Below are positions 20,693 to 25,879 of a DNA stretch of 50,485 nucleotides, one piece after another (position 1 is the stretch's first letter; the number at the start of each line of letters is the position of its first letter). Source of the DNA: Thermoplasmata archaeon. GTDB lineage: Archaea > Thermoplasmatota > Thermoplasmata > Lutacidiplasmatales > UBA184. A model generated the notes under the pieces. The model saw only the letters and a program-made list of their open reading frames with translations, did not search any database and was not told the origin of the DNA. A program made the translations under genes and the position numbers. The DNA lies in contig JAKIVU010000008.1 in assembly GCA_022750375.1 (NCBI GenBank), positions 1-50,485 on the forward strand, written 5' to 3'.

Positions 20693-22050
20693 TCTGGACG
20701 CGATGGCCCCGCCGGCGCGCGGCGCGGCGACCGGCGGCCGGGTCCCCGATTCGAGCGGGCGGGGATCGAACGATGGGGCCGGGACGATCCTTTCGTCGGC
20801 GCGGCTCGCGTCGTGGAAGCGGGGCCGGCGAGCTCCCGGCCGATTTCGTCCAGCAGACGGCCCGCGAATACGGGTTTCGAGGCACGGATCCAAAACTTCG
20901 GCCCTTTCGGGGGAAGGATGAGGGCGTTCGTGTCGGTGCTTCCCATGGTCGCGACGTCGTTCGCCACGACCCAATCTGCCCCCGTGTCCTTTCGAAGTCG
21001 ACGGCCCTCCTCCTCGAGGCGGGCCGCTGAATCGCCGGCGAGGAGTTTGAACGCGACCAGGACCGCCGGCCGGGGAGACAGTCGGCGCAATTCGGGCAAC
21101 ACCTTGGGAGCTAGTTGCAGGGTGACCGACAACGTCGCCTGTTCGGCGGAGCGGATCTTCCCGGGTCGCCGGTCGACGACAAAGTCCGACAGGGCGGCCG
21201 GGACGAAGACGGCGTCCGCGGCCCGGAGCTCTGGGCTCCGTTCACGAGCGAGCGTGATGAGGTCGCCGACGCTCCTCCACGCCACCGGACGCAAATACGG
21301 CGGAACAGTCACTTGCAGAGCGCCGGTCCAAAGAGCGACCTCGGCGCCTCGAAAGAACGCCTGGGACGCCAACGCCACGGCCGACGCTCCCGAGCTTTCG
21401 TTCGTGAGCGAACGGACCGAGTCCAGTGACTCCCGGGCCGCGCCGCCGATCACGAGCACCCGTCGACCGGCCCAGGGTCCCCGGGCGATCCGGTGGAGCA
21501 CCGCCGCAGCGACCTCCTCCGGCGTCGCGATCTTCTCTTCTCCTTCTGCCGACGCTCCTTGGACGATGCCAACTCCCCACGACCGCAGCTTGTCGATGCT
21601 CTCGCGAACGGCCGGGTTGAGCCCCATGTGTTCGTGCATCGCCGGGGCGATCAGCAGGGGGACGCCCCCACCGAGCGCGACCGACGCGAACGAGGTCACG
21701 GGAGTGTCGTCAATCCCGTGGGCGATCTTCGAGATCGTGTTCGCGGTGGCAGGGGCGATGAGATAGAGGTCGGCGCGCCCCTCTCCGGGACCAAGTAAGG
21801 TCACGTGCTCGACGTTTCCCGTCAGCTGCACGATCGCCGGATGACCGGTCGCGAACTCCAACGCTTCCGCCGTGACGATGCGGGTCGCTTCGGGACTCAT
21901 CACGGCGCGGACATCGGCCCCGTGGCGGATGAGTTCGCGAATGATCTTCGGGACTTCGACCGCGGCGATCGACCCGGAGACCCCGACGAGAATACGGCGA
22001 CCGGCGAGGAGCTCGGTCGTCCGCCCGCGGATCACGTGGCTTGGGTGCAT
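20689..22050 (-). CDS. coaBC: Bifunctional phosphopantothenoylcysteine decarboxylase/phosphopantothenate-cysteine ligase
   Basis: RRILVGVSGSIAAVEVPKIIRELIRHGADV, APAMHEHMGLNPAV flavoprotein region plus CoaB half ending ...WVVANDVATMGSTDTNALIL. Confidence 0.93.
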   Translation of the reverse strand: MHPSHVIRGRTTELLAGRRILVGVSGSIAAVEVPKIIRELIRHGADVRAVMSPEATRIVTAEALEFATGHPAIVQLTGNVEHVTLLGPGEGRADLYLIAPATANTISKIAHGIDDTPVTSFASVALGGGVPLLIAPAMHEHMGLNPAVRESIDKLRSWGVGIVQGASAEGEEKIATPEEVAAAVLHRIARGPWAGRRVLVIGGAARESLDSVRSLTNESSGASAVALASQAFFRGAEVALWTGALQVTVPPYLRPVAWRSVGDLITLARERSPELRAADAVFVPAALSDFVVDRRPGKIRSAEQATLSVTLQLAPKVLPELRRLSPRPAVLVAFKLLAGDSAARLEEEGRRLRKDTGADWVVANDVATMGSTDTNALILPPKGPKFWIRASKPVFAGRLLDEIGRELAGPASTTRAAPTKGSSRPHRSIPARSNRGPGRRSPRRAPAGPSRPD

Positions 22051-22157
22051 GGGACTCTCTCGCCGGGGGTCGGCGGACTCCGGAGATAAGACCCGGCCTA
22101 TTAGGGAGGCGGCGGTCGGCTCCCTGCCTTAAAGAGGCGCGACTCCTCGACCCCAGC

Positions 22158-23036
22158 ATGCCCGGCGCGATTCCGCCCGTACCGCCCCCCGCGCCGGATG
22201 CCTCCTCTCCCGCCGAGCCTCCGCTCCAGGAACTCGAACTCCCGACCATCGGGCCCACGAGCCAGTTTGCCGAGATCGGCCACGGCGTGGGGCGGCCGAA
22301 GGAAACGATCGCTCCGGTCCGCGTGGAGCGCGGGCTGGTCGTCTTCGACCTGGATGGGACGATCCTCGACGACTTGGGCCTCATCAGCGTCGTGGCCGCG
22401 GACGTGATGTTCAAGGCGTTCGGCACACCGCTCGACGAAGCTCGGATCCACTACCTGGCCACCACGGGGATGCCGTTCGAGGCCCAGCTCTCCCAGCTCT
22501 ACCCAACCGCCCCGGTCGCACTTCGCGCGTCGACCGCTCGGACGTTCCATCAGCGCAAGGTGACGGAGGCCTACACGAAGGCGAAGCCGTTTCCCGAGAT
22601 CCCGAAACTTCTGAAGCGACTGGGGACGGAGCGGTGGACCCTCGCAGTATCGACCGGCGCGGAGACGGAAATGGCCGACGTGCTGCTCGAACGGGAGGGA
22701 CTCCGCTACTGGTTCGAGGATGTATTGGGCTCGGCAGAGGGGACGAAGCGGGAGCACCTCGCCGAGTATCGACGTCGATTCCCGGAGGTCCCGATGTTCA
22801 TGGTCGGTGATTCCCGATTCGATATGGAGGCGGCGCAATCCGTTCCCGGTGTCGCAGCCCTCGGTCGTGCCTCCACGCTGAAAGGATGGGGGTTGACTCC
22901 GCTCGACCTCCGGCAGTGGGGGGCGAAATGGGCCGACTACTCCCTCTCCGGGCTCCCGGAAGTGCTCGCCGAGTTCGAGCAGGCCACTCTCGATCCTGTG
23001 GGGCTCAAGCCTCGGCGCCGAGCGAAGCGGTCGTAG
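22158..23036 (+). CDS. HAD-superfamily hydrolase (phosphoglycolate phosphatase-like)
   Basis: VVFDLDGTILDD, AVSTGAETEMADVLL, MFMVGDSRFDMEAAQ. Confidence 0.9.
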   Translation: MPGAIPPVPPPAPDASSPAEPPLQELELPTIGPTSQFAEIGHGVGRPKETIAPVRVERGLVVFDLDGTILDDLGLISVVAADVMFKAFGTPLDEARIHYLATTGMPFEAQLSQLYPTAPVALRASTARTFHQRKVTEAYTKAKPFPEIPKLLKRLGTERWTLAVSTGAETEMADVLLEREGLRYWFEDVLGSAEGTKREHLAEYRRRFPEVPMFMVGDSRFDMEAAQSVPGVAALGRASTLKGWGLTPLDLRQWGAKWADYSLSGLPEVLAEFEQATLDPVGLKPRRRAKRS

Positions 23037-23144
23037 GGCCGGGACCGAGAGTCTCAGGGCGCGGGGTTCGGCCCCACGCCGCTTTGAACCCGGGTCGAGG
23101 GATCCACAGTCCCCCAGGATAGGCCAAGCTACCCCATCCCGGCC
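23037..23144 (-). tRNA. trnH: tRNA-His(GTG) with a 32-nt intron in the T-loop (59/60; intron 23051-23082)
   Basis: Minus strand: G-1 at 23144; acceptor GCCGGGA/TCCCGGC (7/7 bp) with C73 at 23037; anticodon stem GGGGA/TCCCT around loop CTGTGGA; T-stem CCGGG/CTCGG; TTCAAA then intron; spliced product is 76 nt; BHB motif present. Confidence 0.93.
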
Positions 23145-23224
23145 ACGGGAGTTGGAGGAGGCGGCCGGGAGAAAAGGTTTCGCTCGAGGCCGCCGACGTT
23201 CGGGGGCAGGGAACAGTAACCCAC

Positions 23225-23938
23225 TCAGCGGTACGCCCAGACAACGGCCTGGCCGAAGAACCGCCACGGAACCCCGACATGCCGGAAGCCCGCGCGCTCG
23301 AGCGCGGCGAGCTCGGCGGTCAGCGTCGACGGGTGGTCGAATTTTTCGTGACCGTGCCAAACTTCCTGCGGACTCGTCCAGGCGCCGGTGCGACCGCCGG
23401 GGGCTGGGAGCATGGAGGCGATCTGGGCGTAGCGGGTGTCGAAGATCGAATCCTCGGGAAGGTGGTCGTCGGCGTCGCCAAAGTATCCTCCCGGAGCGAG
23501 GCAGCGATACACGCGCCGGAATAGACGCCACTTTTCCACGTCCGAGAGATGGTGGATCGCGAGGGCGGAGACGACGACGTCGTAGGTTCCTTCTTCGAAG
23601 GTGGCGAGGTCACCGGCGCTGAGCTCGAACCGCTCGCGGTACGGCCGGAGCTTGGTTCGCGCCCGGGTGATCATCTGAGGCGACAGGTCAATCCCCGTAA
23701 GATGGGCGTGCGGGAACCCCTCCAAGATCCGGGCGGTGAGGGTGCCGGTTCCGACTCCCAGCTCGAGCACTCGGAACGACCGGGTAGCTACGAACGGGAT
23801 GCCCCAAATGAGCGTTCGATGGAGGTCGCTGTACCCCGGCATCGACGCGCGGGCGGTTCGGTCGTACGCCGGAGCCTCGCGGTCGAACTCGCGGCGCATC
23901 CCCGTCGGGGTTCCGCGAGTGACCATGGATTCGCTCAT
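23225..23938 (-). CDS. Class I SAM-dependent methyltransferase
   Basis: RVLELGVGTGTLTARILEGFPHAHLTGIDLSPQMITRARTKL, YDVVVSALAIHHL. Confidence 0.9.
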   Translation of the reverse strand: MSESMVTRGTPTGMRREFDREAPAYDRTARASMPGYSDLHRTLIWGIPFVATRSFRVLELGVGTGTLTARILEGFPHAHLTGIDLSPQMITRARTKLRPYRERFELSAGDLATFEEGTYDVVVSALAIHHLSDVEKWRLFRRVYRCLAPGGYFGDADDHLPEDSIFDTRYAQIASMLPAPGGRTGAWTSPQEVWHGHEKFDHPSTLTAELAALERAGFRHVGVPWRFFGQAVVWAYR

Positions 23939-24496: not shown

Positions 24497-25126
24497 TTAC
24501 GGGCAGGTCGTCGCGCTCGTGCAGCTGTTCACCGTGATCACGACGTTCGTGATGGACGGAGGGGTGATCGACGGAGTTCCGAGGCCCACAAACAGGAACA
24601 CCGAGATCGTGGACGAGGTGTCGGCCGAAGTCTGGGTGTCGAAGTACCCCGAGCCAAAGGCGTAGACCGTGGTAAGCGGCGCGGTGCTCGGCGAGTAGAT
24701 CACTTCCACCTGGACGTCAAAGCCCACGGCCGTGGCGCCCTGGAGGGCGAGCACGACGACTTGGAGCGCGGTCTGGCTGGTCACGAGACCGAAGGTCGCG
24801 TCCACGGCGGAGAAGTTCCCGGAGCAGCTGGCCACGGGGCATGAAGTCAGTCGGACGTTCGTTCCGTACGTCGAGTTCAGGCCATTGCCGGTGCCCGGCT
24901 GAGTGCCCGCGGCGCCGAGGCCAGCGGTCCAGCCAGACGCGGTGATCATCTGCGAGGACTGCACGATCTCTGGCGCGCCGTTCGGCGTGACGACGGTGAC
25001 CGTCGAGCTCTGGGGCGGGGGGTTCGCCGTTACGACCGTGGCCGCGAACGCCCAACTCCCCGCGAGCGCGAGGATGGCGACGAGGGTGATCGCATAGACT
25101 GTTCTTCGTTGCATTGCTTTTTGCAT
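24497..25126 (-). CDS. Secreted protein with Sec signal peptide, unknown function
   Basis: ATG at 25126: MQKAMQRRTVYAITLVAILALAGSWAFA-ATVV..., four Cys in pairs; TATA-rich promoter and terminator-like hairpin. Confidence 0.8.
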   Translation of the reverse strand: MQKAMQRRTVYAITLVAILALAGSWAFAATVVTANPPPQSSTVTVVTPNGAPEIVQSSQMITASGWTAGLGAAGTQPGTGNGLNSTYGTNVRLTSCPVASCSGNFSAVDATFGLVTSQTALQVVVLALQGATAVGFDVQVEVIYSPSTAPLTTVYAFGSGYFDTQTSADTSSTISVFLFVGLGTPSITPPSITNVVITVNSCTSATTCP

Positions 25127-25156
25127 AGATTTCCCCTGAGGGGATAACGGTATTTC

Positions 25157-25261
25157 TTCGACTACGTATTTATACGTATTCAATGAAGTATATCGCTGCC
25201 AAAACTCGGTTCGGGCGAGGCAACAAGTACAATTGCCCGCACGATACATTCGACTAGGTAT
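25157..25261. repeat. Direct repeat TTCGACTA(C/G)GTAT at 25157-25169 and 25249-25261
   Basis: 12 of 13 bp identical; in the AT-rich divergent promoter region. Confidence 0.6.
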
Positions 25262-25285
25262 ACACGGAGCGCGCACCTCGATTCC

Positions 25286-25879
25286 ATGACCCACCGCGAC
25301 GCCGCCGCCTCACCCGAATCCGAGCCGCCGCCGAAGTCCGGGTTCGTCGCCACCCTGCCCCTCCTCGTGTTGACTTTCGCCCTGTTCCTCGGCTCGTACT
25401 TGGTGTACCTGGAGGCGCCTCACTTGGGCCCGGTCAACTTCCCCCTCTGGGGGTTGATGCTGACGCTCGGGTTCGTCGCCGCCATCGGTTCCGTCGTCTC
25501 GTGGTTTTTCGCAACGGATGACCGCGGCTCGACGGTCGAGGAGGAAGAACCGACGTCGAGCGACGCCGCCCCCGACCCACCACTCCCCCGCAAGGCGTTC
25601 GGGCGGCCCGCGCCGGAACTCGTTCCTCCGATCGCACCGCTGGGGCCGTCGAGCGGACTCGGTCACGCCGCCGCGGTCGCCGGCACGAAGCCCGCCGCTC
25701 CCTGGGACGAAGACGCGCTTCCGCCGGTTTCCGCCCGTGGACCGCGCCCCGTGCTGACGACGTTGGACGACCCGGGGGAGATCGGACGCGCCCTCGAAGA
25801 GATCGCGGATATCCAACGCCAGCTCACCACGCGCCCCTCGCCGGCCGCGGGCCGAACCGAGGCACCGGCGCGCGCTTAA
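25286..25879 (+). CDS. Two-TM membrane protein with low-complexity acidic/proline-rich tail
   Basis: Hydrophobic segments LPLLVLTFALFLGSYLVYL and LWGLMLTLGFVAAIGSVVSWFF. Confidence 0.65.
   Translation: MTHRDAAASPESEPPPKSGFVATLPLLVLTFALFLGSYLVYLEAPHLGPVNFPLWGLMLTLGFVAAIGSVVSWFFATDDRGSTVEEEEPTSSDAAPDPPLPRKAFGRPAPELVPPIAPLGPSSGLGHAAAVAGTKPAAPWDEDALPPVSARGPRPVLTTLDDPGEIGRALEEIADIQRQLTTRPSPAAGRTEAPARA

Follow-up and report, generated by a model that had tools for sequence, protein, structure and literature searches.

When a histidine tRNA gene carries 32 extra nucleotides in its T-loop, is it a working gene whose transcript is spliced, a decaying copy, or the gene for a tRNA with an unusual arm? 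The case arises in a 50,485-nt stretch of DNA from a Thermoplasmata archaeon (hereafter the window, meaning the whole stretch analysed), which is contig 1 of assembly G000 (0.93 Mb in 17 contigs, ~69% complete) and has a GC content of 65-69%. Neither ARAGORN nor Rfam at its gathering threshold reports any tRNA in the window, and a search of phage DNA gave no match. Read on the minus strand from 23144, the sequence runs GGCCGGGATGGGGTAGCTTGGCCTATCCTGGGGGACTGTGGATCCCTCGACCCGGGTTCAAA, then 32 bases, then TCTCGGTCCCGGCC, with its last base at 23037. The features are as follows:

23037-23144, minus strand: precursor tRNA-His(GTG) gene, G-1 to C73 (sequence, family survey, and ARAGORN on the spliced form)
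23083-23144, minus strand: exon 1, G-1 to A59 (no variation between the anticodon arm and A59, both included, among 56 different equal-length sequences from the family)
23051-23082, minus strand: 32-nt bulge-helix-bulge (BHB) intron at position 59/60 (BHB pairing, covariation, and ARAGORN on spliced versus unspliced forms)
23037-23050, minus strand: exon 2, T60 to C73 (family-invariant apart from position 62)
23105-23107, minus strand: anticodon GTG (sequence and ARAGORN)
23085-23088, minus strand: central BHB helix, exon strand TTCA, positions 54-57 (sequence and family pairing)
23053-23056, minus strand: central BHB helix, intron strand TGAG (sequence and family pairing)
23058-23080, minus strand: intron hairpin GGCGTGGGG-CCGAA-CCCCGCGCC (covariation; present in the minimum-energy fold too)
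23169-23182, minus strand: promoter-like CGAAACCTTTTCTC, ~30 bp upstream of tRNA-His (from the sequence; function putative)
22041-23036, plus strand: HAD-family hydrolase ORF, convergent neighbour whose stop abuts the tRNA 3' end
23225-23938, minus strand: SAM-dependent methyltransferase gene, upstream neighbour

The acceptor stem pairs in all seven positions, with G-1 (23144) opposite C73 (23037), an arrangement identical in the congeners listed from a DNA search; the T-stem is CCGGG/CTCGG, with one G-U. The BHB consists of a four-base-pair central helix (TTCA/TGAG, one G-U) flanked on either side by a 3-nt bulge (AA^G, AC^T). The intron hairpin, which sits on a C-C mismatch, is 9 bp long. 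On re-reading the sequence, the coordinates and letters that a sequence-only reading had assigned to the tRNA, intron and BHB were all correct; the single nucleotide it had placed between the tRNA 3' end and the HAD stop codon does not exist, the ORF ending at 23036. With 23082-23051 removed, the resulting 76-mer is called as tRNA-His(gtg) by ARAGORN, with a cloverleaf and a GTG anticodon, and the unspliced precursor receives no tRNA call. The suggestion that such genes are easily missed by gene finders holds for ARAGORN and Rfam, but tRNAscan-SE 2.0 has BHB models in its archaeal mode (PMC8450103). Promoter-like forms, AAACCTTTT or AAAGGCTTTT, lie at roughly the same ~30 bp distance from the tRNA-His of congeners. 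Near the methyltransferase gene there is also a 265-aa ORF (24497-25294, minus strand) that contains a hydrophobic segment and matches nothing in Pfam.

The layout suggests a mechanism. The sole tRNA-His gene of the cell would yield a 108-nt precursor (plus flanks) with its T-loop broken between A59 and T60. This precursor would fold into a BHB whose outer helix is the T-stem, whose central helix is TTCA/TGAG and whose inner helix is the intron hairpin. An alpha'2-type splicing endonuclease (EndA) would cut within each 3-nt bulge (AA^G and AC^T); ligation of the exons by RtcB would then give a 76-nt tRNA-His with an encoded G-1. We hold it to be very probable that this is the sole tRNA-His, that its BHB intron at 59/60 is cut by alpha'2 EndA and its exons joined by RtcB, and that it belongs with roughly a dozen introns sharing this site. 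The basis is the sequence, its conservation and covariation, the lack of an intact copy, the EndA of congeners, and RtcB in G000, from which we infer transcription, cleavage, ligation and use in translation.

Conservation is extensive. In a DNA search covering 60 relatives, most congeners turned out to have the interrupted tRNA-His. When 400 genomes of the class were surveyed with a pattern demanding an interruption of 15-45 nt at 59/60 of tRNA-His, 95 of them matched: 61 of the 70 in the genus, including all 26 congeners at least 90% complete; 22 of 25 from the family's other genera, for a family total of 83 of 95; and 12 from three other families (f16, f20, f23). Since the interruption recurs family-wide at the same 59/60 position and the reversed-pattern control gave no matches, chance is not the explanation. 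The intact pattern was found in 201 genomes of the class, but in none of the 95 genomes of this family, the window's own included, and in none from f16, f20 or f23; the tRNA-His of the order's two sister families (G037-G039) matched neither pattern.

These counts bear on whether the locus is a decayed pseudogene, carrying an insertion, whose working counterpart lies elsewhere in the genome and went unassembled. The assembly is indeed incomplete, and such decay can occur: a distant relative (G055, loci L060 and L303) has two tRNA-His genes in tandem, one of them intact, the other disrupted in the T-arm and poorly matched in its 3' half, possibly a case of tRNA gene decay. A missing working copy is harder to reconcile with the absence of any intact tRNA-His from the whole family, the 26 near-complete congeners among them, or with exons that are invariant around an insertion that covaries. 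This explanation was dropped on the strength of the family survey and the covariation data, and we regard it as exceedingly improbable.

The interrupted tRNA-His stretches of two genomes (G306, G025) are identical to those in the MAGs SubAcS15-120 and AcS5-107, listed as Lutacidiplasmatales, a Thermoplasmatota order from acidic soils with ~69% GC (PMC9287336). The type genome of the order is reported to encode tRNAs for all 20 amino acids, as determined with tRNAscan-SE 2.0; introns go unmentioned in that paper (PMC9287336). Within exon 1, the D-loop shows a one-base variation, GGTTATCC versus GGCCTATCC (L037, L041, L045, and L046 versus other congeners), the rest being almost invariant. MAGs of Hadesarchaea (Ca. 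Hadarchaeum) and an uncultured archaeon have tRNA-His T-loop insertions of ~20 nt (L098, L099, L106, L108, L109). A scan of GTDB contigs with position 62 fixed as C, which is an undercount, places the interruption in at least the Hadesarchaea and several Thermoplasmata; one bacterial hit (L100) was rejected as a chance match.

The intron boundaries can be located by comparison. In an alignment of the 56 different equal-length sequences, the 28 columns 5' of the intron are invariant, as are the 14 columns 3' of it, position 62 in the T-stem excepted, while all four letters occur at both the first and the last base of the intron; the boundaries therefore fall exactly at the cut sites predicted from the BHB. 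Within the intron helix, 90% of cells are paired and seven of ten pairs show double changes; these occupy 72 cells, whereas shuffling gives 24.9 on average and slid versions give 27 at most. The T-stem and the central helix vary too little to inform on covariation. Across 74 sequences from the family, the central helix is fully paired (four standard pairs) in 44, and has three such pairs in 29 and two in one; where there are three, the fourth position is in nearly all cases A-G or A-A, mostly A-G. The comparative data thus back the tRNA-His identity, the 59/60 position and the splice sites first proposed from the window sequence. The energy model is less favorable: the minimum-energy fold of the isolated RNA keeps the cloverleaf and the intron hairpin but shifts the central region, and this register (-28.8 kcal/mol) is preferred to the BHB (-24.8 kcal/mol) by 4 kcal/mol.

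Could the insertion instead be retained, unspliced, as an extended T-arm of the mature tRNA? In favor of this, the stem-loop shows conservation and, in the predicted fold, lies stacked on the T-stem. But it interrupts the T-loop, the partner of the D-loop in docking; other families of the class have an uninterrupted tRNA-His with closely similar exons; and the insertion is free in both sequence and length (28-33 nt) beyond the constraints of the BHB. With variability ending precisely at the predicted cut sites and uninterrupted forms elsewhere in the class, an unspliced arm was set aside as very improbable. Comparison of sequences argues instead that the sole tRNA-His gene found has a real and conserved T-loop intron, which is almost certainly spliced. 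This intron is an archaeal noncanonical tRNA intron, an already known kind of element.

Splicing would need an endonuclease and a ligase. G000 itself encodes RtcB. EndA had no match in this 69% complete assembly, but is present in 27 of 27 genomes at least 90% complete, as two PF01974 endonuclease units in one ORF. In the C-terminal unit of the congener protein, the residues aligned to Y246, H257, R280, and K287 of A. fulgidus are conserved; two units in one chain, with the catalytic Y/H/K in the C-terminal one, correspond to the alpha'2 type. In an alignment with M. jannaschii, A. fulgidus, and A. pernix, the congener catalytic unit has no lysine-bearing loop insertion before the LSLxE segment; its spacing equals that of M. 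jannaschii and A. fulgidus, and A. pernix is ~9 residues longer. Judged by its sequence, the congener splicing endonuclease is a single-chain, two-unit alpha'2 enzyme without the Crenarchaea-specific loop.

The interrupted tRNA-His had been described by itself; the gene is real, but it is one of a genome-wide set. A splice-aware scan of weak tRNA hits in a 100% complete congener, G029, found 12 isoacceptors with a 59/60 intron, ruling out an isolated oddity in one tRNA: besides His, these are Arg(tct), Glu(ctc), Asn(gtt), Ser(gct), Gln(ctg), Ala(ggc), Ser(gga), Gly(tcc), Ser(cga), Arg(tcg), and Asp(gtc). ARAGORN misses these eleven non-His genes (L160, L161, L159, L195-L201, L203) or mis-ends them at the 3' side. 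When all DNA downstream of A59 was resampled as a control for the splice test, any candidate at all appeared in 31 of 480 trials, with a top score of 112.1, so that no trial reached 115; 11 of the 12 real G029 genes did. Gly(tcc), at 110.7, is the weakest case taken alone, but recurs in relatives. The window's own genome has four such introns, in His and in three further genes:

L234, C4:109092-109189: Arg(tcg) with 59/60 intron
L235, C16:22961-23067: Arg(tct) with 59/60 intron
L236, C16:16233-16332: Ala(ggc) with 59/60 intron

A covariance model built on the intron-bearing tRNA precursors of G029 (model R1, from alignment A2, where the D and anticodon arms of two rows are one base out of register), together with a further scan, recovered much the same isoacceptor set in G001, G018, G025, G079, and G202; the 59/60 counts leave out L276, L280, L303, and L304, which have no clean single-intron solution. 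Some tRNAs carry two introns. G038, from the sister family f3, combines an anticodon-loop intron with a 59/60 intron of 13-14 nt in both Gly(ccc) and Gln(ctg), and tRNA-Lys(ttt) has both D-loop and T-loop introns in G018, G025, G202, G037, and G038 (L266, L256, L281, L285, L292), genomes that span three of the order's families. For the rest of the class, a check of one or two genomes from each family turned up few 59/60 introns, mostly in Arg(ccg).

Several further cases were seen in passing. A tRNA-Met(cat), apparently the initiator, has a D-loop intron in G029 (L152) and G082 (L301), with a T-loop intron as well in G082. In many of the other Thermoplasmata families Arg(ccg) is interrupted by an intron at 59/60, often with an anticodon-loop intron as well (L306, L307, L309-L311, L313, L321); for Arg(ccg) in G038 (L293) a three-intron reading is plausible by eye, and the two-intron scan gave no solution.

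Some twelve isoacceptors interrupted at an identical site could conceivably be the work of a mobile intron recently copied among tRNA genes, and there is a precedent in the intron transposition proposed for Thermoproteales (PMC4090602). The intron cores give no sign of recent copying, however: between different tRNAs in one genome, their similarity hardly exceeds that of shuffled cores (mean score 0.027 versus -0.005), while the same isoacceptor compared across genomes scores 0.109. The isoacceptor set is also largely common to several genera, which points to old gains. A recent mobile origin seems unlikely, although less so than either of the two alternatives above; we infer that old gains, followed by rapid drift under BHB constraint, fit these sequences better.

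Position 59/60 is among the noncanonical archaeal intron sites already listed, with Crenarchaeota and Nanoarchaeota as rich sources (PMC4090602), and Thermoproteales average 0.84 introns per tRNA gene (PMC8450103). The noncanonical introns best known from Thermoproteales and other Crenarchaeota (sites including 20/21, 25/26, 56/57, and 59/60; PMC4090602, PMC8450103) resemble those described here in having a short BHB, in using 59/60, in occurring in several genes per genome, and in some tRNAs having two. They differ in that the host here belongs to the Thermoplasmatota and has an alpha'2 enzyme without the Crenarchaea-specific loop, that most of the noncanonical introns found sit at the one site, and that intron sequences are not common between genes. 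Canonical euryarchaeal 37/38 introns, a described substrate of alpha'2 EndA, share the 3-nt bulges and 4-bp central helix (often 3 bp here), but interrupt the anticodon loop, not the T-loop. The epsilon2 endonuclease of ARMAN-2 and the crenarchaeal (alpha-beta)2 enzymes, which have specificity loops (PMC12397907), likewise occur in hosts whose tRNA introns occupy diverse positions; the congener EndA, with two units in one chain, has no insertion at the place of the A. pernix loop.

Euryarchaea with alpha4 or alpha2 enzymes are described as having single introns at the canonical position (PMC4090602, PMC4033280), and the restricted range of alpha'2 enzymes has been attributed to the missing loop (PMC12397907), although a 2021 paper grants homodimeric endonucleases a wider range (PMC8707768). 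No description of the Lutacidiplasmatales 59/60 set was found in open-licence papers, most subscription literature lying outside the search, and within those papers the one-site load of this order appears to be undescribed. On balance we lean toward the view that Lutacidiplasmatales, and to a lesser extent other Thermoplasmata, have undergone an undescribed one-site expansion at 59/60, in about a dozen isoacceptors, some with two introns, alongside a loop-less alpha'2 enzyme, contradicting the association of alpha2 enzymes with single canonical introns.

For annotation, the consequence is that pipelines based on ARAGORN or Rfam lose or mis-end a large share of the tRNA genes in these genomes. 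For specialists, the surprise would be a loop-less alpha'2 lineage with about a dozen introns at one noncanonical site. Reviews tie diverse intron positions to endonucleases with a broad-specificity loop (PMC4090602, PMC4033280, PMC12397907), and the 59/60 set bears on that rule: the lineage would allow a direct test of whether intron position is free so long as a BHB can form, the strictness of the enzyme lying in the fold rather than in the position.
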